Origin: a virus
IMG/VR virus record: IMGVR_UViG_3300049259_000204
Location: 1-48,978 of that record
Strand: one strand, 5' to 3'
Length of the DNA stretch: 48,978 nucleotides
The notes under the pieces are model-generated. The model ran no database searches. It had not been told where the DNA came from and saw only the letters and a program-made list of their open reading frames with translations. Positions 2,912-44,595 of the stretch are shown here, in pieces. The position numbers and the translations under genes are program-made. Numbering within the stretch: position 1 is the stretch's first letter; each line of letters starts with the position of its first letter.

Positions 2912-3156
2912 CGGTTCCTCGCGTTCATCTTCAGCGCGTAGGCCTTCAGGCCATCGATCGCCGGACCGGCCAGGGTCTCCACGCTGACCACCCGGCCGTC
3001 GTCGAGCACCATGCCGTCGAGGCGGTCCCAGACGTCTTCCCAGTCGACCCGGATGGCCTGGTACCAGCCGTCCACGATGTCGTCCACTGCGCGCTTGACC
3101 TCGTCCGGAATCTCCTCGAAGGAAGTCCGCGAGGTGATCTCCAGGTAGTCGCTCAT
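2908..3156 (-). CDS. acidic hypothetical protein (82 aa)
   Basis: Begins MSDYLEITSRTSFEEIPDEV. It is acidic in the first half (DDIVDGWYQAIRVDWEDVWD) with a short basic tail (MNARNR). ATGA overlaps at both ends tie it to the metallophosphoesterase gene downstream and the 116-residue gene upstream. No family recognised. Confidence 0.8.
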   Translation of the reverse strand: MSDYLEITSRTSFEEIPDEVKRAVDDIVDGWYQAIRVDWEDVWDRLDGMVLDDGRVVSVETLAGPAIDGLKAYALKMNARNR

Positions 3157-3503
3157 CGGTTCTTCTTCCTCTCACTCTTCTCCCAGCGCTCCAGCGCGGC
3201 CGCGCCTTTGTCGTTGAACAGCAGGGAGGTCGGCCGGTCCAGCAGCTCGTACTTCCGGCCGTCGGCCCGGGACAGATACTGCGAGGCGCGCAGCTCGCGC
3301 AGCGTGTCGACCATGTCCGGGTCCACCAGCTCGATGTCACCCAGCTTCGGCTCGTACATGAACGAACCCATCGCGGTCGGGATGTCCGGGACGAAGAACA
3401 GCTCGTGCTGAGCGGCCAGGCGCAGGGCGTTCAGGCGCTTCTGCGTCTTGACCAGCCCGACGGGATCGTCCACGTACGGGCGCTTCTTCGGGTCGAGTGC
3501 CAT
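3153..3503 (-). CDS. hypothetical protein (116 aa), possible winged-helix fold
   Basis: The start at the ATG at 3503 (MALDPKKRPYVDD) overlaps the upstream stop as TGATG. The C-terminal half (LRELRASQYLSR...YELLDRPTSLLFNDKGAAALERWEK) has the helix-strand-strand look of a winged helix, ending in a basic tail ERKKNR. DNA binding is only suggested. It lies in the operon from the promoter at 4734-4762. Confidence 0.75.
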   Translation of the reverse strand: MALDPKKRPYVDDPVGLVKTQKRLNALRLAAQHELFFVPDIPTAMGSFMYEPKLGDIELVDPDMVDTLRELRASQYLSRADGRKYELLDRPTSLLFNDKGAAALERWEKSERKKNR

Positions 3504-6225: not shown

Positions 6226-6501
6226 TCAGGGGTTCTTGATCTCGATCCGCATGCGGCGAGCCTTCTCCGGGACCTCCGCCACCCAGACCGAGCCCACAGC
6301 GAGGTCGAAGAAGCTCGCCAGGGCGCGCGTGAGGTGGAAGATGCCGTCGACCGTCTGGCCCGGTGTCAGCTCCACGATGAGCCCGTCACCGTCCTCGTCG
6401 AGCGGCCGCGAGCCGATGAGCGGGGTGAGCCGATTCGGGCAGGTCTCCTTGTTGGAGAGAGTCTCCCACTGCTCGCGCAGGGTCTTGATGTCGTTGGACA
6501 T
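6226..6501 (-). CDS. free-standing paralogue of the FtsK/TraB N-terminal domain (91 aa)
   Basis: A 91-residue protein beginning MSNDIKTLREQWETLSNKET. It aligns along nearly its whole length with residues 176-262 of the DNA translocase at 27,517-29,577: KETCPNRLTPLIGS versus KTTCPPRLAPLVGS (10 of 14 identical) and GQTVDGIFHLTRALASFF versus GHTVDSVSHLRDALASFF. The ATPase part is absent. Leader is CACCGAAGGAGATCACC. Inferred role: partner, decoy or regulator of the translocase. The homology is visible in sequence; the role is not. Confidence 0.9.
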   Translation of the reverse strand: MSNDIKTLREQWETLSNKETCPNRLTPLIGSRPLDEDGDGLIVELTPGQTVDGIFHLTRALASFFDLAVGSVWVAEVPEKARRMRIEIKNP

Positions 6502-6621
6502 GGTGATCTCCTTCGGTGTGGTGGAAGGGCGGCCACCGCAGGCAGAACAGGTGGCTCCGCGCCCAACCAGCCCGACGCGCTATCCTGCGGTTGTTCTGTG
6601 GCTGTCCACGCCGCCCTTGAT

Positions 6622-6930
6622 CTAGATCTTTTCGACGTCGAGCAGCTTCCCGTGCTGATCCGGCGGTCCGTCCTCGGGATCGCGTGGGTGGCCGAAGTTC
6701 ATGGCCTCCCAGACCTCGTCCGGCGCGGGGACGTAGACGACTGGCCAGCCCACCACGTCCACGTCCGTCTCGGTCTCCATCGGCCCCCAGAGGTCGACGA
6801 TGTGCCACTTGGCGTCTTGGCCCTCCTGGTCCAGCAAGATCGCGTGCGCGAAGCCCTCGGGGGACCGCCGGACAGTGCCGTGCGGCAGCCTGTTCGCGTC
6901 GTCCACCGTGATGGTCGAGTTGGTGATCAC
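6622..6930 (-). CDS. hypothetical protein (102 aa)
   Basis: The GTG start at 6930 (MITNSTITVDDANRLPHGTV) overlaps the upstream stop by GTGA. Beta-rich N-terminal half and acidic/proline loop (DPEDGPPDQHG). No family recognised. Followed by a 120-base gap before the translocase-domain paralogue. That gap holds a possible weak promoter (TGGACA ... GATAGC on the minus strand, around 6580-6615) without the operator palindrome. Confidence 0.8.
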   Translation of the reverse strand: MITNSTITVDDANRLPHGTVRRSPEGFAHAILLDQEGQDAKWHIVDLWGPMETETDVDVVGWPVVYVPAPDEVWEAMNFGHPRDPEDGPPDQHGKLLDVEKI

Positions 6931-22208: not shown

Positions 22209-23147
22209 TCAGGCGGCCGTGGTGGCCTTGTCGTCCTCGGTCTCCTCCTTGGCCACGGCGCGGCCCAAAACCATGTCAGCGGCCTTCTGGGCCTTCCCGG
22301 CGGCCACGATGACCGCGCGCGGGTCCTCCTTGATCGTCTTGATCCAGGAGGCCAGGTAGGCGGCCGAGTTCTTCTGGGTGCTCTCGATGCCGGTCTCGGC
22401 GCAGAGGAACGCGGCGCCCATCTCGGCGATCAGCTCCTCGCGGCCGTAGGCGTGGCTGCCGAAGGCGTTGTTGCGGCTCTCCGCGCGGTTCAGGCGGTGC
22501 TCGGCGGCGGTCGAGTGGGTCAGCTCGTGGAACAGCGTCGCGTGGTACTCGTCCAGGCCGTGGAAGCTCTCCTTCAGCGGCATGGTCAGCTCGTCGGTGG
22601 CCCAGGTGAAGTGCGCCGAGTCGCCGCCGTGCTTGATGACCGGCTTGGCCTCCCAGGCGTCCACCACGGCCTGCGCGGCCGCGTGGCGCTCCTCGGGGCT
22701 GGGGACCGGACGGGCCACCGGGAAGGCGTCCTTCGGCAGTTTCTCGATGCCCTCGGTCTGGTCCAGGTTGAACACGTAGAAGTGCTTGAGCAGCGGGATC
22801 ATCTTCTTCTTGCCGGTCGCCTCGTCCTCGATCGGCAGCAGCTTCCAGAAGGTGACCAGGGTGCCCTTCTGCGAGCCCTTCTCGCCCTTCAGGTGACCGC
22901 CCAGCTTGGCCATCTGGTTGAAGGTCAACCAGTACGCGCTGCGGTAACCCTTCTCGGCCTGCTCCAGGCCCAGCAGGAAGGCGTTGACGCCCCGGTAGGC
23001 CTTGCCCGAGGAGAGCGACTTCGGCGCGCCGGTGACGCTGTCCCACGGCTTGTTCCACGGCGCGGTGCCGTTCTCCAGCGCGGTCAGGATCTTGGTGGTG
23101 ACGACGTCGTAGACATCGACCTTGGGCTTGCGGGCGGTGGTGGCCAT
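22209..23147 (-). CDS. ArdC-like antirestriction protein with zincin domain (312 aa)
   Basis: N-terminal domain (about 10-130) matches the ArdC/DUF1738 ssDNA-binding family: VYDVVTTKILTALENGTAPW, the WNKPW box, SGKAYRGVN and W-L-T-F-N-Q. The C-terminal domain is a metallopeptidase-type zincin with HELTH (207-211), REELIAE (236-242) supplying the third ligand, and GAAFLCAETG. ArdC proteins of plasmids protect incoming DNA from restriction; here it would shield phage or transferred DNA after entry. Length is normal for the family. First gene after promoter copy 14. Confidence 0.9.
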   Translation of the reverse strand: MATTARKPKVDVYDVVTTKILTALENGTAPWNKPWDSVTGAPKSLSSGKAYRGVNAFLLGLEQAEKGYRSAYWLTFNQMAKLGGHLKGEKGSQKGTLVTFWKLLPIEDEATGKKKMIPLLKHFYVFNLDQTEGIEKLPKDAFPVARPVPSPEERHAAAQAVVDAWEAKPVIKHGGDSAHFTWATDELTMPLKESFHGLDEYHATLFHELTHSTAAEHRLNRAESRNNAFGSHAYGREELIAEMGAAFLCAETGIESTQKNSAAYLASWIKTIKEDPRAVIVAAGKAQKAADMVLGRAVAKEETEDDKATTAA

Positions 23148-26373: not shown

Positions 26374-26419
26374 GATCCCTCCCGGGTTGGTTCAGGATTG
26401 TGTACTCGCAGGGTATGTT

Positions 26420-26438
26420 ACCCCGTAGGCTACGGGGT
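26420..26438. promoter_or_regulatory. 19-bp palindrome in the divergent control region
   Basis: ACCCCGTAG G CTACGGGGT is a perfect palindrome between the minus-strand gene starting at 26373 and the plus-strand operon starting at 26454. It differs from the 21-copy operator. A TATCCT at 26442-26447 lies 7 bases before the ATG, the right position for the -10 of a leaderless transcript. Likely binding site for a separate regulator of the transfer-like operon. Confidence 0.65.
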
Positions 26439-26453
26439 GAGTATCCTACGGTC

Positions 26454-26723
26454 ATGACTTACGACCCTGAGCGTGACGAGACCCCGAGCTACGAGGGCGA
26501 GGTGGTCGAGGAGAAGGCCCGCATGCGCCCGCGTACGAAGGTGGCACTCGGCGGGCTCGTGGGCCTCGGCGTCTCGATCGTCGCCGAGCAGTACCTGATC
26601 GCCATCGGGCTGATCTGCGCCTACGTCGCGTGGATGTTCGTCCGCACGTGGCTGGCGAAGCGGCGCCGCGACCGCGCATGGCTCGACGGCGGCGGAACGA
26701 TCGAGCGAGGAGGGATCCTGTGA
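26454..26723 (+). CDS. small membrane protein of transfer-like operon (89 aa)
   Basis: Begins MTYDPERDETPSYEGEVVEE. Acidic N-terminus, basic stretch, then one or two hydrophobic helices (about 30-62: VALGGLVGLGVSIVAEQYLI then AIGLICAYVAWMFV) and a basic tail. No ribosome-binding site is seen, so translation may be leaderless. The stop overlaps the next GTG (GTGA). Small membrane proteins of this kind sit next to spd/tra genes in actinomycete conjugative elements; that is context, not homology. Confidence 0.75.
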   Translation: MTYDPERDETPSYEGEVVEEKARMRPRTKVALGGLVGLGVSIVAEQYLIAIGLICAYVAWMFVRTWLAKRRRDRAWLDGGGTIERGGIL

Positions 26724-27520
26724 AGCTGCCCGATGGCGGCAAGCTCGTGTCCTGGACGGGCTTCATCTTCGGCACGGCGGTGTCGGTCGCCGCGAATGTG
26801 CTGGCCGCCAGGATCCCGCCCGATCACGCCGCGTCGGACTGGACCCCTCGCACGGACACCCAGTTGGGCTCGGCGGTCTGGCCGCTGGCGCTGCTGCTGT
26901 CGATCGAGGTGCTCGCACGGGTCGCCTGGCCCAAGGGCGTCTGGTGGAACGTCGCACGCTTCGGTGGCCTGAGCATCGTGGCCAGCGGTGCGTTCGTCAT
27001 CTCCTACCAGCACATCAACCACGTGCTGGCCTCGTGGGGCTACGAATGGCTGAGCCAGGGCGTCGGCCCGCTGGTGATCGACGGCTTGATGGTCATCTGC
27101 GGCGTGGCGATGCTGGCCAAGCCGGGCGCGCTGCGCAAGCTGCTCGCGGGCAAGGACGCGCCGGAGCGGAGGGACGTCATTCCCGAGGTCCCGAAGCCGA
27201 TGCTGCGGCCGCTGAACGAGCCGAACATCGGCGGCCCGAGTAAGTCCTCGTCCGTCGAGGACTCGACGGCCCCGGCTGAGCTGGAGCACGGCGTCCCGGC
27301 GCAGCGCAACGGACACCGGGTGTCGGCAGCGCTGAAGACCGGCCCGAAGCCGCGCAAGACCTCGGGCCAGAGCGACGAGGAGATCGCCACCCTGCTGCGC
27401 GGGGAGATCGAGCGGGACGAGAACCCGGACCTCACCAAGCGCGGCGTGATGACGCGATTCGGCGTCGGCGCACCGCGCTGGACCAAGATCACCGAGCTAC
27501 TGAAGAAGGAGGAGTCGTGA
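26720..27520 (+). CDS. DUF2637/SpdB-like membrane protein (266 aa)
   Basis: GTG start overlapping the upstream stop. Four predicted membrane helices (about 10-28, 48-66, 82-98, 112-134) with the family-like motifs ISYQHINHVL (94-103) and GPLVIDGLM (116-124) typical of DUF2637, a family found in actinomycete conjugative elements with plasmid-spread functions. The hydrophilic C-terminus (about 140-266) is Pro/Lys-rich and ends in an HTH-like segment (LTKRGVMTRFGVGAPRWTKI). Translationally coupled by GTGA to the translocase gene. It probably works with it at the membrane. Confidence 0.85.
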   Translation: MKLPDGGKLVSWTGFIFGTAVSVAANVLAARIPPDHAASDWTPRTDTQLGSAVWPLALLLSIEVLARVAWPKGVWWNVARFGGLSIVASGAFVISYQHINHVLASWGYEWLSQGVGPLVIDGLMVICGVAMLAKPGALRKLLAGKDAPERRDVIPEVPKPMLRPLNEPNIGGPSKSSSVEDSTAPAELEHGVPAQRNGHRVSAALKTGPKPRKTSGQSDEEIATLLRGEIERDENPDLTKRGVMTRFGVGAPRWTKITELLKKEES

Positions 27521-29577
27521 GCGGTGAGTCGAAGGGGGTCGTGAAGGAGATCCTCGGCACGGCGGGCGGCGTGCTCGTCGCCGAGGGGATCGGGCGGGGG
27601 TGGAAGCGCGGCCGCAAGCTGATGTTCCGGTGGCGGCGCGCGCTCACCCCGCTGTGGTTCGGGTTCCTGATCTTCCTGACCTGCGTCATCTGGCGCTGGC
27701 AGATCCCGCAGTGGTGGCCGATCGTGCTCACCATCCCGGTCGGCGGCGGCCTGCTGGCGGTCTTCGGGCCGAAGCTGTCGGATCGCTGGTCCCGGGTGGC
27801 GATGGCCTTCGTGCCCAGTGGGCTCGACAAGGGCAAGGACGGCGTGCTGGACCGGCTCGTGGAGCGGATCTACTTCGGCACGCTCACCACCTACATCGGC
27901 GCCTACATGGTCCTACGCATCGTGGACGGCTCCAGTTCGTTCTCCGGCTACATGTGGCAGATCGGAGTGGCTGCCTTCGGCGGCGCCTGGTGGTACCACC
28001 GCCGGGTGCGGGTGGCCGGACGGGCCGACCGCTTCGCGAAGAAGTGGCCGAAGCTCTCCGACAAGACGACCTGCCCGCCCCGGCTCGCGCCGCTGGTCGG
28101 CTCGAAGGTGGTCGACGCGCGGGCGTACGGCAAGACCTCGGTGCTGAAGATCCGGCTCGGCGAAGGCCACACTGTGGACTCCGTCTCGCACCTGCGTGAC
28201 GCGCTGGCGAGCTTCTTCGGGATGCGCCCGTCCTCGGTGTTCATCGCGCCGGACCAGGACCAGGCTCGCAACGTGGTCATGACCTTCCTGCCGAAGGACC
28301 CCTGGGACGGCAAGATCGCGCACCCGATCTTCACCGATAGCGAGATCAAGCCGGGCGAGATCAGCCTGAAGTCGATGGGCAAGCGCTTCGCCATGGGCCT
28401 GCACGCCCACGGCGAACGGATCATGTACCAGCTTCAGCACACGCTGGTGGTCGGCGCGTCCGACTCGGGCAAGTCCGGCTGGCTGCACTCGCTGATGGCG
28501 TGGCTGGTCAGCTTCTTCGACGTCGTGATCGTCGGCATCGACATGGCCGCCGGGGCGACGCTGGGCGTCTGGCGCAAGACCCTCGCGCTGCCGCTGGCCG
28601 AGGACGTGGACTCGGCGGTCGTCATCCTGGAGCGCGTCTTCGGCGTGATCCGGGACCGGGAGTCCCGGCTGGGCCTGGCCTCGGAGGACGACGACGACGC
28701 CGAGGACAGCGTCGAGCCCGACCGCAAGACCCCGTGGCTGATCCTGGTGATCGACGAGTTCCCGGACCTGCTGGCCGAGGCCAAGGCGACCACGAAGTAC
28801 AACGGAGACGGCAAGGCCGACGGCAACATGCTGAACTACGTGATCGCCCTGCTGTCGCGGATCGCGAAGAAGGCGCGCAAGTGTGGCGTGCGGATCGTCA
28901 TCGCGAGCCAGAACGGGACCAAGGCGGACCTGGGCTCGAAGGAGATGCAGGCCCAGCTGCGCGCGATCGTGGGCCTGGGCCTGGACCCGCTCCAGTCCAA
29001 GAACCTCTGGCAGAACGACATGCACCGGGGCTGGAACTCGACGGCACTACGGAACGGCCAGTTCCTCCTGAAGGACGACGAGCACGGGACTCCGGACCCG
29101 GGCAAGGGGTACTGGGTCGAGAACAAGGACCGCCGGGATCTCGTCAAGAAGGTGGCGCCGAAGGGATACCGCGAGGTCTTCCTGGAGCCCACCGCGTGGG
29201 CGATCCTCATGGGCGAGACCAAGCCGGAGACCATCGAGGGCGAGGTCATCGCGGAGGAGACCTTCGGTCCCGAGTACGCGGTCCTGGAGTACCTCCGGGT
29301 CGAGGCCCAGGACGGCGCGAAGGTGGAGACCATCTCCGACGTCCTGACCAAGGCCAAGGAGGAGACCGGCGGGTCCGGTCCCGGGACCAGCCGGGCGACG
29401 ATCTACCGGCACCTGGAGAAGCTGGAGAAGGGCGAGCTGGTCGTCCGCAACGGCGGCGGCGAGGGCTTCTGGAAGGCGGCCCCCGTCACGGCCACCACGC
29501 CAGTGCCCGAGCCCCGCACGGAGACGGACGGGCCGGTGGTCATCGCCAGCATCCAGGGCGAGGCAGTGTCGAAGTAG
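27517..29577 (+). CDS. FtsK/SpoIIIE/TraB-type DNA translocase (686 aa)
   Basis: GTG start in a GTGA overlap. Order of parts: basic N-terminus; up to four membrane helices (about 45-60, 65-85, 118-135, 145-160); a soluble domain (176-262) that is the paralogue of the small protein at 6226-6501; RecA-type motor with Walker A GASDSGKS (313-320) and Walker B ILVIDEF (409-415); C-terminal winged helix (about 587-655, TSRATIYRHLEKLEKGELVV). This is the build of TraB of Streptomyces conjugative plasmids, a membrane hexamer moving double-stranded DNA after recognising short repeats through its winged helix. In a phage it may pump DNA between mycelial compartments or cells. Confidence 0.9.
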   Translation: MSGESKGVVKEILGTAGGVLVAEGIGRGWKRGRKLMFRWRRALTPLWFGFLIFLTCVIWRWQIPQWWPIVLTIPVGGGLLAVFGPKLSDRWSRVAMAFVPSGLDKGKDGVLDRLVERIYFGTLTTYIGAYMVLRIVDGSSSFSGYMWQIGVAAFGGAWWYHRRVRVAGRADRFAKKWPKLSDKTTCPPRLAPLVGSKVVDARAYGKTSVLKIRLGEGHTVDSVSHLRDALASFFGMRPSSVFIAPDQDQARNVVMTFLPKDPWDGKIAHPIFTDSEIKPGEISLKSMGKRFAMGLHAHGERIMYQLQHTLVVGASDSGKSGWLHSLMAWLVSFFDVVIVGIDMAAGATLGVWRKTLALPLAEDVDSAVVILERVFGVIRDRESRLGLASEDDDDAEDSVEPDRKTPWLILVIDEFPDLLAEAKATTKYNGDGKADGNMLNYVIALLSRIAKKARKCGVRIVIASQNGTKADLGSKEMQAQLRAIVGLGLDPLQSKNLWQNDMHRGWNSTALRNGQFLLKDDEHGTPDPGKGYWVENKDRRDLVKKVAPKGYREVFLEPTAWAILMGETKPETIEGEVIAEETFGPEYAVLEYLRVEAQDGAKVETISDVLTKAKEETGGSGPGTSRATIYRHLEKLEKGELVVRNGGGEGFWKAAPVTATTPVPEPRTETDGPVVIASIQGEAVSK

Positions 29578-29636
29578 GCTTCGAGTAGGGCCGTTTGCGC
29601 AGGTCAGCGACCCTACGAGCGGTTTAGAGTACAGCG

Positions 29637-29669
29637 AAGCCCCCGGGTGTCCGACCACCCGGGGGCCTT
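29637..29669 (+). terminator. terminator of the translocase operon
   Basis: GCCCCCGGGTG / CACCCGGGGGC, a perfect 11-bp stem with a 6-base loop, flanked by AA...TT and followed by CTTCTGC, about 60 bases after the stop at 29577. Confidence 0.85.
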
Positions 29670-29965
29670 CTGCTGTCCCACTCCCAAGAGGAACCAGGTC
29701 AGGCTAGCACGCGTCTGACCTGCGCAAACGCGCCCCGCGCGCCTGCGAACACGTACGTACGTACTGCATGTGCACACGCTATGTGCGCGCTCGGGGGCGC
29801 TGCGCGTCTCATGTCGCACGTCTCACGTCATGCGTAACGTGCGCAGGCGCGGGGGCTGCGAGAACGCGAGATCGATCATGTTTGCCCAGGTCACTGACCT
29901 GCGGAAACTCTCAGAGGCCGTCCTGGGGGTCTCGACCCGTCTCATCCTGGGTCGCGATCATGAAC

Positions 29966-29996
29966 GAGCCCCCGGCAGGTGCTCCCGGGGGCTTTC
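29966..29996. terminator. bidirectional terminator
   Basis: AGCCCCCGG / CCGGGGGCT (29967-29975 with 29985-29993) followed by TTCATTC on the plus strand. It lies just after the stop of the convergent minus-strand gene at 30013. Confidence 0.75.
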
Positions 29997-30012
29997 ATTC
30001 GACACAGCGTGA

Positions 30013-30744: not shown

Positions 30745-31449
30745 TCAATTGGTCAGAAGCTGGACGATCTCCCACCACGGCCTTCCGGCCGTCATCAGCG
30801 TGGCGGTGCCCAGCAGGCCGACCCCCACGGCCAGGCTCATCGTCACGGCGCCCTCGCCGAGATTCACCCACGACCAGCGGGACAGGGTCTTGATCCGGCC
30901 CTTCTCCCGGTGGCCGCCGACGCGGAAGCGGGCGATCTCGGGGCAGGTCCAGACCGAGAACCAGCGCTTGCCGTTGCGCTCGACGAAGGGGGCCCAGAGC
31001 GGGATCCCGCTCAGCGTGATGCTGTCGCCCCACAGGTGCGCGAAGTGGCCCAGGGTCATGGCCAGGGAGGCCCACAGGGCCCAGTCGGATGCGGGACTGG
31101 CCGAGATCCCGAAGTAGGTCCCGAGACCCACCAGGAGGCCCCAGACGGCCGTGTGGGTCAGGGTCCGGTGACCCGGGAACCGGCCCATCCGGTCCTTGCT
31201 GGTCCGGGTGGCCTCCCAGACGATGATCGAGACCTTGTTGATCAGCCAGGCCAGGCCCCAGGTGATGGGTCCCAGCAGCTTCGCGGCCTTCGCCTTCGGC
31301 ATGTCCAGGTCCGGCAGCAGGGCGCCGATCCCGACGATCCCGACGAAGACCAGGGTCACCACCGCGTTGGCGGGACCCGGGTGCGGGACCAGCGGGGCCA
31401 CGGCGAGCGCGACTGCGTACCCAGAGAGTTGGTGTCCGGTGTGTTCCAC
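30745..31449 (-). CDS. YdjM-like membrane-bound metal-dependent hydrolase (234 aa)
   Basis: GTG start at 31449 (MEHTGHQLSGYAVALAVA). Conserved His/Asp of the YdjM/DUF457 family: H6, LLPDLDMP (44-51), HRTLTHT (94-100), HFAHLWGD (135-142), between hydrophobic segments. The family is described as membrane metal-dependent hydrolase of unknown substrate. In a phage it could alter membrane lipids or the entry/lysis state; inferred only. It directly abuts the upstream gene. Confidence 0.85.
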   Translation of the reverse strand: MEHTGHQLSGYAVALAVAPLVPHPGPANAVVTLVFVGIVGIGALLPDLDMPKAKAAKLLGPITWGLAWLINKVSIIVWEATRTSKDRMGRFPGHRTLTHTAVWGLLVGLGTYFGISASPASDWALWASLAMTLGHFAHLWGDSITLSGIPLWAPFVERNGKRWFSVWTCPEIARFRVGGHREKGRIKTLSRWSWVNLGEGAVTMSLAVGVGLLGTATLMTAGRPWWEIVQLLTN

Positions 31450-35452: not shown

Positions 35453-35704
35453 TCAGACGCAGGAGCGGGTGAGCTTGCGGCGCTCGTCGGGGGTCGTGCC
35501 GCCGAAGATGCCGTGGTCGAGACCCTCGTCCAGGGCGAAGCCCAGGCAGACCTCGCGGACGGGGCAGCGGGCGCAGACCGCCTTCGCCTGCGCGACCTGC
35601 CGCTCGCCTGGGCCGACCTCGGAGATCGGGAAAAACAGCTCAGGATCCTCGTCCTTGCACGCGGCGAAGTCGCTCCACGCGAACTGCTCGATGCGCTCGT
35701 TCAT
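35453..35704 (-). CDS. whiB: WhiB-family Fe-S transcription regulator (83 aa)
   Basis: Four cysteines in WhiB order: C16 (DFAACKDEDP), C44, C47 and C53 (CARCPVREVC), ligands of a [4Fe-4S] cluster. The G[VI]WGG turn appears as GIFGG (65-69), followed by the basic RRKL segment that contacts the -35 region. WhiB proteins bind region 4 of the primary sigma factor; phage copies can redirect host transcription or block cell division and superinfection. Ribosome-binding site AGGAGGCCG. Second gene after promoter copy 18, so under operator control. Confidence 0.93.
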   Translation of the reverse strand: MNERIEQFAWSDFAACKDEDPELFFPISEVGPGERQVAQAKAVCARCPVREVCLGFALDEGLDHGIFGGTTPDERRKLTRSCV

Positions 35705-42088: not shown

Positions 42089-42625
42089 ATGCCACGACGG
42101 ATCTTCACCGCAGAAGAGCGCTATCTTGCGAAGGTAGACAAGTCAGCTGGACCAGATAAGTGCTGGCCATGGACCGGTCACCGGCTCAAGAAGGGGTACG
42201 GGCTGTTCTGGGATGGAACGCGCAATGCCAGCGGGAACAACCACCTTGTAGTCGCAAGTAGGTGGGGTTACGAACATTTCGTCGCCCCGATCCCGGCAGG
42301 GCTCTTCGTACTGCATCGATGCGACAGCCCTCCTTGCCAGAACCCAAAGTGCTGGTTCCTTGGCACTAACCAGGACAACGTCAACGATCGAGTGATCAAA
42401 GGGCGCGGTGCCAAGGGCGAGCGCAGTGCCTTCAAGCTTCACCCCGAGCTATATCGAGGCGAGAACCACTACAAGGCGACTCTGACCGAAGACGATGTCC
42501 GCGAGATCCGTAGGCGCTACGCGGCTGGCGGGATCACCCAGCAGGCGCTAGGTGATGAATTCGGGCTCCACAACGTCACCATTTCCAAGATCATCACCAA
42601 GCAGCGCTGGGCTCACGTCGACTAA
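42089..42625 (+). CDS. HNH (homing-type) endonuclease (178 aa)
   Basis: Begins MPRRIFTAEERYLAKVDKSA. Core of the HNH fold: LHRCDSPPC (75-83), NPKCWFLGTNQDNVNDR (85-101), with cysteines for a structural zinc. The C-terminal HTH (132-172, ITQQALGDEFGLHNVTISKI) is of the type found in phage intron or free-standing homing enzymes. It has its own promoter, is opposite to its neighbours, seems less GC-rich than they are, and its stop overlaps the terminase stop tail-to-tail (42622-42625). Probably a mobile insertion next to terL. Confidence 0.9.
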   Translation: MPRRIFTAEERYLAKVDKSAGPDKCWPWTGHRLKKGYGLFWDGTRNASGNNHLVVASRWGYEHFVAPIPAGLFVLHRCDSPPCQNPKCWFLGTNQDNVNDRVIKGRGAKGERSAFKLHPELYRGENHYKATLTEDDVREIRRRYAAGGITQQALGDEFGLHNVTISKIITKQRWAHVD

Positions 42626-44595
42626 CGTCGCCGCCGGTGAGGGTTCCGTGCAGGGTTGAGCCCTCCTGCGCGGACCATCGTCCTCTTGCTCGGGGACAGT
42701 CGATTGAGCACATCCTGATCGGGTGACTCCATGTTGCGGTACGGGTTGAAGCCGCCCTGCTGGCCGGTCACGATGTTCATCTCGCGCAGCATGCCCGCCT
42801 GCCAGTTCCGGACCTGCTCGCCGAGGATGGTCCAGACCACTTCCATCATGCACTTGGCCACGTCGTCATGGACCACGGGACCGGTGTCCTGGTGCACGAC
42901 GCGGTTGGTGGTCGCGGTGGTCTTCAGCTGGAGGAACTTCAGCTCCAGTTCGGCGGTCTCGTACCAGGGCGCCTCGACCCAGCCCTGGTTGATCGCGACC
43001 TTGAAGCACTCGGCCACCTGCCAGTTGTGCTTGGCGTCGGACTTCTGCTCGAAGATCGTCATGCGCTTCGGCGCGCGATTCTGCCGGACCTTGCGGTTGA
43101 GCCGCTGGATCGGCATGGCCGAGTTGTGCTGGTCGAAGGTGAACTCGTCGATCTTGAAGCCCCAGATGATCTCCCACAGCTCGACGTCCACAACCTGGAT
43201 GTAGTCGATCGTGTGGTCGGGGAACTCGGCCGGATCCCAATGATGGAGCAGGTCGAAGCGGCAGCGGAGAAAGCCGTCCTCGTGCTCTTCGGCGTGGCCG
43301 ACGGCGAGACCGAAGTTGTCGTTGACCTTCGAGGGGTCCGCGTGTCCCTTGTAGAACGTCGTGAGGTTCTTGGCCGTGCGGGTCATTACGAGGTCGTTCT
43401 GGAAGATCGCCTCGACCTTCTTCGGGTCCAGGTAGGCATCCACCACCGACTGCCAATGCGAGCGGCGCTCGACGGAGAAGGTGTCGGGGTTGGCCCGCTC
43501 CAGCTTCTCCATCCGCTCGTCGTACTCCTGGATGGCGCCCTTGAGCCGCTGGAACTTCGGGTGCGGCCGCTCCAGGTACTCGTTCAGATCGCCGGTGAAG
43601 TCCTCCGGGAAGACGGGCAGCATGTGCGCGTCTTTCCAGTCGTAGTAGATCTCCCAGCTGGCCAGCTGGAGCATCATCATCTCGGGGTACTCGGGGTTGC
43701 CGTCCTCGTCGAAAGCCAGCGCCATCTCCCAGTTCGCGTAGAACTGGCCGATCATCTGCCAGGGACTCGACGGGTCGATGATGAAGCCGTCCATCTTGAA
43801 TTGATCAAGAGATGGAGTCGCTGAGCCATACACCTCTTCGGCGGAACGACCGGCACCCGAGGGCACCACGTGCGCCATCTCGTCGAAGCCGAGCCCGAAG
43901 GAGGCCGGGCCACGCGCGGACATCAGCGTGGCCTCCTTCGGCTGGATCGTGAAGGTGGCCATGTCCCGCGCGGTGGTGACCCCGCGCTGATTCTGCCGCC
44001 GCAACCGGACGAAGTCGTGCGGTGCGTAGATGGTCAGGTTCTCCCCGAGCGACCGGGAGATGTACTTGGCGAAGCACGGGGCGCCCTGGATGACGTTGAC
44101 GACGTCCTTCCAGAGGTTCTCCCGGGCCTGCTGCTTCTTCCCGGCGTAGATGAACATCGCCAGCTGCTTGTCGCGGTCGATCCCGTAGTACTCCTGGGGA
44201 TCACCCTTGGCCATGAAGCGCCAGAGCACGTAGGCCATGGCCAGCGCCGAGACGTAACCCTTCCCGGCGCGGCGGCCGAGGACCAGCAGGACCTCGCGGA
44301 AGTAGAAGTAGCCCTTGAGCCGGAGCGCGGCCATGCGCTGGCGGATCTTCGGCACGATGCCGTTGTTCCCGTGCCGCTCGAAGGAGGCCTCCCACTCGTC
44401 GATGACCATGTGGTCGTACTCGGTGAGGAGGTCGTTGCGCAAGAAGATGACCTTGAGCAGGGTTGCCTGACGCGGGTAGAGCTGCCCCCGGCCACACCAG
44501 CGCGGGTTGATCGCAAAGGTGATGGGGTCAGGAACCGGCAGCCCCGTGAACGCTGCGAAGTCCACGGGGCTGAAGGCCGGAGGCGAGAGGGTCAT
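42622..44595 (-). CDS. terL: terminase large subunit (657 aa)
   Basis: Start at the ATG at 44595 (MTLSPPAFSPVDFAAFTGLP) in an ATGA overlap; the longer frame is rejected. ATPase part: GRRAGKGY (107-114) is the Walker A variant of phage terminases and LGFDEMAH (235-242) the Walker B plus catalytic Glu. The C-terminal half, with acidic segments (GHAEEHEDG, QVVDVELWEI), is expected to be the RNase H-like nuclease that cuts concatemers. The motor packages DNA into the procapsid together with the small subunit and portal. The start of the late region on this strand. Confidence 0.92.
   Translation of the reverse strand: MTLSPPAFSPVDFAAFTGLPVPDPITFAINPRWCGRGQLYPRQATLLKVIFLRNDLLTEYDHMVIDEWEASFERHGNNGIVPKIRQRMAALRLKGYFYFREVLLVLGRRAGKGYVSALAMAYVLWRFMAKGDPQEYYGIDRDKQLAMFIYAGKKQQARENLWKDVVNVIQGAPCFAKYISRSLGENLTIYAPHDFVRLRRQNQRGVTTARDMATFTIQPKEATLMSARGPASFGLGFDEMAHVVPSGAGRSAEEVYGSATPSLDQFKMDGFIIDPSSPWQMIGQFYANWEMALAFDEDGNPEYPEMMMLQLASWEIYYDWKDAHMLPVFPEDFTGDLNEYLERPHPKFQRLKGAIQEYDERMEKLERANPDTFSVERRSHWQSVVDAYLDPKKVEAIFQNDLVMTRTAKNLTTFYKGHADPSKVNDNFGLAVGHAEEHEDGFLRCRFDLLHHWDPAEFPDHTIDYIQVVDVELWEIIWGFKIDEFTFDQHNSAMPIQRLNRKVRQNRAPKRMTIFEQKSDAKHNWQVAECFKVAINQGWVEAPWYETAELELKFLQLKTTATTNRVVHQDTGPVVHDDVAKCMMEVVWTILGEQVRNWQAGMLREMNIVTGQQGGFNPYRNMESPDQDVLNRLSPSKRTMVRAGGLNPARNPHRRRR

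Follow-up and report, generated by a model that had tools for sequence, protein, structure and literature searches.

Conjugative plasmids of Streptomyces use a single FtsK-type protein, TraB, that moves double-stranded DNA (dsDNA) from the clt site, while spd genes aid spread in the recipient mycelium (excerpts of PMC4170104 and PMC3583192). In plasmid pWTY27, clt lies at the 3' end of the tra gene, and the Streptomyces plasmid-phage pZL12 has a three-gene tra locus (excerpts of PMC3583192). SpdB2 of plasmid pSVH1 is a membrane protein that binds both DNA and TraB and has been linked to plasmid spreading (excerpts of PMC4170104). Here, we describe a three-gene operon, A-B-C, with a conserved noncoding site 3' of its last gene, in a 48,978-bp virus record (IMG/VR record IMGVR_UViG_3300049259_000204; the whole stretch is called the window). 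Because the record is classed as linear, the window is possibly a fragment.

The phage operon resembles the TraB/Spd plasmids (pIJ101, pJV1, pSVH1, and pWTY27) in having a single FtsK-type dsDNA translocase with an N-terminal transmembrane part and a C-terminal winged helix, together with small membrane partner genes. Its candidate cis-site lies at the 3' end of the translocase gene, as in pWTY27. Unlike these plasmids, the operon resides in phages, has no adjoining GntR/Kor regulator in the window, and lacks a SpdB homologue recognizable by sequence. Furthermore, the phage cis-site is a single conserved core with dyad arms, whereas that of the plasmids is a dense repeat array. We give roughly even chances to the reading that the operon is a TraB-type dsDNA transfer or spread module acquired by phages, with the clt-like site as the loading place of protein C.

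The A-B-C operon and its translocase

The operon comprises three coupled genes.
26454..26723, plus strand: gene A, 89 amino acids (aa), one predicted transmembrane helix
26720..27520, plus strand: gene B, 266-aa membrane protein, assigned to DUF2637 through its homologues
27517..29577, plus strand: gene C, 686-aa TraB/FtsK-type DNA translocase

Both overlaps are 4 nt long, with GTGA at each junction, and all three open reading frames (ORFs) that a first-pass annotation had proposed at 26454-29577 were confirmed. That annotation also called this the sole multi-gene plus-strand operon. Script-made calls agree: nearly all of the 104 genes lie on the minus strand, and the only plus-strand call besides A, B, and C is a doubtful 77-aa ORF (42392-42625).

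Protein C has the parts of a membrane-anchored DNA motor. N-terminal membrane helices precede an FtsK motor (Walker A near residues 313-320, Walker B near 408-414) and a C-terminal winged helix, and the protein passes PF01580 (FtsK_SpoIIIE) with 33.4 bits against a cut-off of 24. Its structural model adopts the FtsK motor fold; the top Foldseek hits are dsDNA-bound FtsK motors (E 4e-11) and TcpA, a conjugation coupling protein (E 9e-9). The winged helix appears as an H-H-H-E-E pattern at residues 585-653 with low to medium predicted local distance difference test (pLDDT) scores, and DprA_WH scores 27.7 bits in the Amycolatopsis homologue of C. A profile of nine phage proteins aligns with pIJ101 Tra by hhalign over residues 308-644, winged helix included (Prob 97, E 4.6e-11). 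The earlier description of C as a TraB/FtsK-type translocase with a C-terminal winged helix is thus upheld by the domain match, the model fold, this alignment, and the tree.

The tree supports a placement of gene C with conjugative TraB, actinomycete integrative and conjugative element (AICE), and plasmid translocases, rather than with chromosomal FtsK. It was built from 30 proteins and 323 motor columns, after removal of the long-branched pZL12_71c (the FtsK-annotated gene 71c of pZL12 has no Pfam match at 0.01). A branch with support of 100/98 has 26 proteins on one side (window C plus 25 from plasmids, AICEs, prophages, and phages) and four on the other: E. coli FtsK, the Amycolatopsis chromosomal FtsK, mycobacteriophage LittleE, and Bacillus phage NIT1. 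Within the clade, 11 phage and two prophage proteins form a set at 99/98. The order within the 26-row clade is otherwise unsure, because several plasmid rows have long branches.

The FtsK proteins of other large lytic or temperate phages (Streptomyces Jay2Jay and Gilgamesh, Bacillus Nitunavirus, and Mycobacterium Omegavirus) share the FtsK/SpoIIIE domain with C at ~24-31% identity. Unlike the window, the four neighborhoods viewed in these phages showed no A-B-C set; Gilgamesh has a gene named “membrane protein” adjoining FtsK. LittleE and NIT1 lie outside the TraB-type clade, whereas Jay2Jay and Gilgamesh lie inside it, each paired with a plasmid protein.

A is BLAST-similar to the small first gene of six other loci (L003, L008, L004, L005, L045, and L046). 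B is modeled as four long N-terminal helices, a disordered linker, and a three-helix, helix-turn-helix-like C-terminal end, with a mean pLDDT of 53.9 that rises to ~75-83 across most of the last 45 residues. Its prior label, DUF2637/SpdB-like, holds in its first half only, and there through homologues. Window B scores 17.2 bits against DUF2637 (PF10935), under the curated cut-off of 22.8, but homologues pass in L046 (31.9), L045 (23.2), L008 (26.9), and Amycolatopsis, while the L005 homologue has no DUF2637 match. The SpdB half fails against pIJ101 SpdB (hhalign Prob 0.5).

Exchange among phages and prophages

The operon recurs in other phages, with gene C identities of 41-91%, and chance is excluded on this ground. 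We compared 13 loci with a visible upstream side: the window, L003, L008, L045, L046, L066, L067, L004, L005, L006, L049, L068, and L069. All 13 have B and C, although the L006 contig ends within C. In 12 of them (all but L049, where none is called), B follows a small plus-strand gene, and one extra gene stands between A and B in L045 and L046. Co-occurrence of the three genes is seen in phages of both a ~150-kb and a ~61-kb type.

These two types have little else in common. Many operon-bearing records are ~61 kb or shorter fragments, otherwise unlike the window, and just 7 of the 104 window genes match any of five such records (G002, G003, G005, G008, and G009). The seven are A, B, C, a YdjM-type gene (30745-31449), and the genes at 35453-35704, 3153-3503, and 6226-6501. 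The YdjM-family gene, downstream of the operon, is kept in both groups. Sequence comparison thus supports movement of the operon as a unit between unrelated phages.

The window belongs with the ~150-kb type. Its terminase gene (42622-44595) is 33-35% identical to those of Rhodococcus phage E3 and of Mycobacterium cluster C phages. The 155-kb record G001 carries gene C at 91% identity and matches 83 of the 104 window genes. G001 and the 150-kb record G006 have repeated end sequence and are therefore taken as complete. Compared with E3, the two share capsid (57-59%), portal (40%), sheath (31-32%), and DNA polymerase (34-35%), and a baseplate is common too; by these genes and the terminase, they are classed as myoviruses like E3 and the Mycobacterium cluster C phages. 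At the thresholds used, neither matches a tyrosine integrase (PF00589), serine recombinase (PF00239), or ParA (PF13614), a non-match that is not proof of absence; as a control, PF13614 was detected in pZL12. A lysogen-based picture of the window phage is unsupported, because G001 and G006 show none of these genes. A tblastn of C against 50,697 phage records gave Gilgamesh as the sole match, with no detectable relative in E3, cluster C, Gordonia, or Rhodococcus phages that share capsid or terminase.

B and C also occur on integrated prophages. Two bacterial genome scans yielded a single good-length relative, from Amycolatopsis sp. WAC 01376, plus two weak matches in metagenome-assembled genomes of Acidimicrobiaceae, with no close copy of the ~150-kb type. 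A genus search of 80 genomes gave 2 matches, and a family search of 390 genomes gave 7. Along a ~35-kb stretch of WAC 01376 lie, one after another, a serine integrase, genes for a terminase-like protein, portal, and capsid, the tail and lysis genes, Fic, and a GntR-UTRA regulator. C and B (DUF2637, 78 bits) follow, then 152-aa and 63-aa proteins on the opposite strand. A comEC-like gene closes the stretch, and genes for threonine synthase and ribosomal S20 lie past it (here the tail, lysis, comEC, threonine synthase, and S20 names were read from translations, as were all gene names given below for G067 and for AICE-like loci). In a second Amycolatopsis genome, G067, B and C lie next to a cluster of portal, tail, and lysis genes, and the right flank is the same. 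For the Amycolatopsis prophage, no att repeat exceeded 13 bp. Amycolatopsis is a filamentous host of these prophage versions.

The two Amycolatopsis prophages (G067:C1 4606000-4626600 and G007:C22 214300-249850) have unlike head genes and a common right flank, with B-C at that end. The unlike head genes include the portals: a portal-like gene of 421 aa in one and an SPP1-type portal of 506 aa in the other.

More distant relatives lie on AICE-like loci and plasmids. Five weaker family matches (32-33% identity) stand near GntR- or XRE-like regulators, NUDIX-type proteins, and site-specific recombinases, as in AICEs. Unlike for the phage operon, neither virion genes nor a DUF2637-type partner were recognized among the predicted proteins of the AICE-like stretches viewed. 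Plasmid relatives include FtsK genes in stretches with DUF2637 genes, two also with GntR. On the 94-kb circular Streptomyces plasmid L058 (CP109520), DUF2637, FtsK-type, and terminase genes are close together, and L058 is a possible pZL12-like plasmid-phage. On the Streptomyces plasmid L057, positions 6444-6639 hold 11 copies of GCGGAACA (at most one mismatch) in two opposed arrays directly after the FtsK gene; this is likely a clt array.

The window's relatives are like pZL12, which reportedly combines plasmid-phage content (virion genes and a tra locus), in having both on one genome. pZL12 is a 90-kb circular plasmid-phage with ParA, whereas the ~150-kb relatives show no ParA or integrase. 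Homologues confined to virion-associated or chromosome-segregation FtsK clades, with no link to mobile elements, are not what we find: C groups with conjugative translocases, the unit moves between phages, and B and C are carried by integrated prophages.

Three further genes of the window touch on the operon or its proposed function.
6226..6501, minus strand: stand-alone 91-aa protein, 40% identical to gene C residues 170-257
22209-23147, minus strand: ArdC-like antirestriction gene with ArdcN and MPTase-PolyVal domains
30745..31449, minus strand: YdjM-family membrane protein, convergent neighbor (PF04307, 76.8 bits)

The 91-aa protein could represent a partial gene C copy or act as a pump regulator, because its matches in G001, G006, G008, and G009 fall inside gene C. 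The ArdC-like gene had been linked to the transfer module by the first-pass annotation, but it does not travel with the operon and is ruled out as a member. Among seven other records compared, it is common to the window and G001 only, and it was not found in G006, G002, G003, G005, G008, or G009.

A conserved noncoding site 3' of gene C

Gene C and the convergent minus-strand gene are separated by a stretch of 435 bp that is noncoding (29578-30012). Four features fall within it, and a fifth precedes the operon.
29802..29874, no strand assigned: conserved noncoding site, candidate clt-like transfer start; GTCTCA and GAGA arms flank the core, CGTAACGTGCGCAGGCG at 29833-29849
29638..29671, plus strand: intrinsic-terminator-like hairpin of the operon, read from sequence
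29968..29995, minus strand: terminator-like hairpin of the convergent transcript, read from sequence
29593..29908, no strand assigned: 15-mer GTTTGCGCAGGTCAG in four copies (29593+, 29715-, 29880+, 29894-)
26418..26440, no strand assigned: palindrome TTACCCCGTAG-G-CTACGGGGTGA, a candidate operator for the operon that lies in the divergent promoter region, found by pattern match

The site is conserved across phage types. Of 13 phage regions, 10 contain the 17-mer CGTAACGTGCGCAGACG in this stretch (0-3 mismatches); in L004, L005, and L007 a 2-nt gap interrupts it, and the Amycolatopsis region shows 5 differences. By eye, the G067 prophage has the similar CATACGCGCAGGCG, and both Amycolatopsis regions have GAGCGCTCA-type arms around it. 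The core begins 22 to 256 nt past the stop codon of C.

A profile of the site built from ten elements of ~61-kb-type phages only served as an out-of-sample test. It was searched, at E up to 10, against 895 kb comprising the window, G001, G006, the Amycolatopsis regions, E3, pZL12, plasmids, Gilgamesh, and AICE-like loci. Exactly three matches were returned: window 29802-29874 (7e-9), G006 (1.4e-5), and G001 (1.4e-5), all 3' of gene C and one per genome. Of six ~61-kb-type records searched, five have one site per contig (G002, G003, G005, G008, and G009, which partly sourced the profile); the site was not found in G004, whose contig ends inside gene C.

We prefer a DNA site over an RNA element. 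The window site sits between the two terminator-like hairpins, which suggests that DNA, not RNA, is the working form. An RNA element was rejected, with Rfam scores nowhere near gathering, weak covariation, and a window fold no better than its shuffles. The site regions of L045 and L049 fold better than most of their shuffles, and RNA may be involved in the ~61-kb group. A coding explanation was also rejected: the 13 spans checked have no common ORF, and the 2-nt gap in the cores of L004, L005, and L007 argues against it. The count of the hexamer TGAGAC at the site carries little weight, because the motif was picked after looking. By analogy with the plasmids, 29802-29874 is a candidate clt-like start site that C may recognize.

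The 15-mer has three copies at the same place in G001 and one weak copy in G006. Four copies are reached in the operon's own region only, of 324 windows of the record, while three or more are nothing special in G001 (28 of 1033 windows). The operator palindrome has one match each in the window, G001, and G006, always upstream of gene A. Three ~61-kb phages (G008, G009, and G002) carry dispersed palindromes, TACCCCCC-N5-GGGGGG, with at least eight in G008 and some upstream of the operon, and the set resembles dispersed sites for a regulator.

Proposed function and meaning of the operon

We propose that C would form a membrane-anchored hexameric pump of FtsK fold, whose C-terminal winged helix would pick the DNA to move. 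A and B would act as small membrane partners, B also offering its DNA-binding-like end. The site at 29802-29874 would act like clt, as the place where C loads onto the phage genome. During infection, phage dsDNA would pass through a pore in the membrane or septum, driven by the pump, and enter a neighboring compartment or hypha. The outcome would be virion-free mycelial spread, with a mating partner as the destination for prophage-borne versions. Pore formation, site recognition by C, cargo, time of action, and destination are the steps that we infer.

Our confidence that the operon works like a TraB system is moderate, because the motor, winged helix, small membrane partners, and 3' site match, while repeat density, SpdB similarity, and an adjoining GntR do not; that it may serve virion-free mycelial spread is our hypothesis, drawn by analogy. 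Several results weigh against a TraB-type function. No GntR/Kor-type regulator was found among the window neighbors scanned, and in the 895-kb search the profile detected a site neither in pZL12 nor in the plasmids, AICE-like loci, or Amycolatopsis regions. A dense 8-mer repeat array was rejected for the phage sites, as the window score is equaled in 89 of 329 size-matched controls, compared with a score of 11 for plasmid L057 that none of 158 controls reach. Plasmid relatives of C have only 24-28% identity, and no plasmid matches the C of the Amycolatopsis prophage at 1e-5. For B, hhalign detects no similarity to pIJ101 SpdB (Prob 0.5) or to the L057 DUF2637 protein, and tblastn gives zero matches in plasmids. 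Finally, model confidence is modest (mean pLDDT 54 for B and 59 for C).

A stronger version of the transfer reading is possible, at less than even odds. Large, possibly virulent actinophages might send unpackaged DNA through septa or hyphal contacts by their own site-loaded TraB-type pump. Infection would then cross the mycelium without lysis or virions, and the cassette would be traded among unrelated phages and prophages.

A phage FtsK could instead work inside one cell, in replication, segregation, packaging, or the manipulation of host septation or development, the common interpretation of phage ftsK genes and an explanation that deserves attention even though we find it rather doubtful. 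FtsK-like genes are found in many large phages (154 records with gene C of L046 as the query), and excerpts of the literature read them as replication helpers (PMC11536984) or possible manipulators of development (PMC10117723). The two complete relatives without detected lysogeny genes also fit single-cell action. However, C lies in the plasmid/AICE clade, away from chromosomal-type phage FtsKs, and is accompanied by two membrane genes, a conserved cis-site, and integrated prophages. Furthermore, no relative of C was found in the cluster C, Gordonia, and Rhodococcus phages that share capsid and terminase.

It is unlikely that temperate or plasmid-like ancestors supplied the operon as a cargo or maintenance module that serves lysogen-to-recipient transfer, as in pZL12, and is idle in lytic growth. 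The Amycolatopsis prophages, which carry B and C with a serine integrase or tail gene cluster, are consistent with such a module, as are the AICE-like loci as distant kin. Yet the complete ~150-kb relatives keep the operon with no integrase or ParA detected at the thresholds used, and neither bacterial genome scan returned a close copy of the ~150-kb type. Least probable is a membrane complex for superinfection exclusion or host takeover, whose FtsK-type ATPase moves no phage DNA: the lone promoter, a strand opposite the neighbors, small membrane proteins, and the YdjM-type neighbor fit an accessory set, but conserved Walker motifs, a dsDNA motor fold, the winged helix, and the adjacent DNA site point to a DNA substrate.

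A tra locus on a phage genome (pZL12) and FtsK-like genes in many phages are already known. The listings and abstract openings from our literature searches mention no TraB-type operon with a cis-site in any phage except pZL12. Judging by these listings, three things are new: the presence of the operon in large E3-like phages, its exchange between these and unrelated phages or prophages, and a single cis-site that is conserved. Our analysis establishes the gene order, the motor family, the tree placement, and a conserved cis-site present once per genome, as well as the exchange of the unit among phages and prophages that are otherwise unrelated.

The idea of virion-free spread can be tested directly by way of the conserved site. 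If it is true, a subset of large-phage FtsK genes would gain a function, and the line between phages and conjugative elements would be blurred. A mycelium could then be infected other than by successive lysis events, and some phages of filamentous bacteria would possess, besides virions, another way to spread that was taken over from conjugative plasmids.

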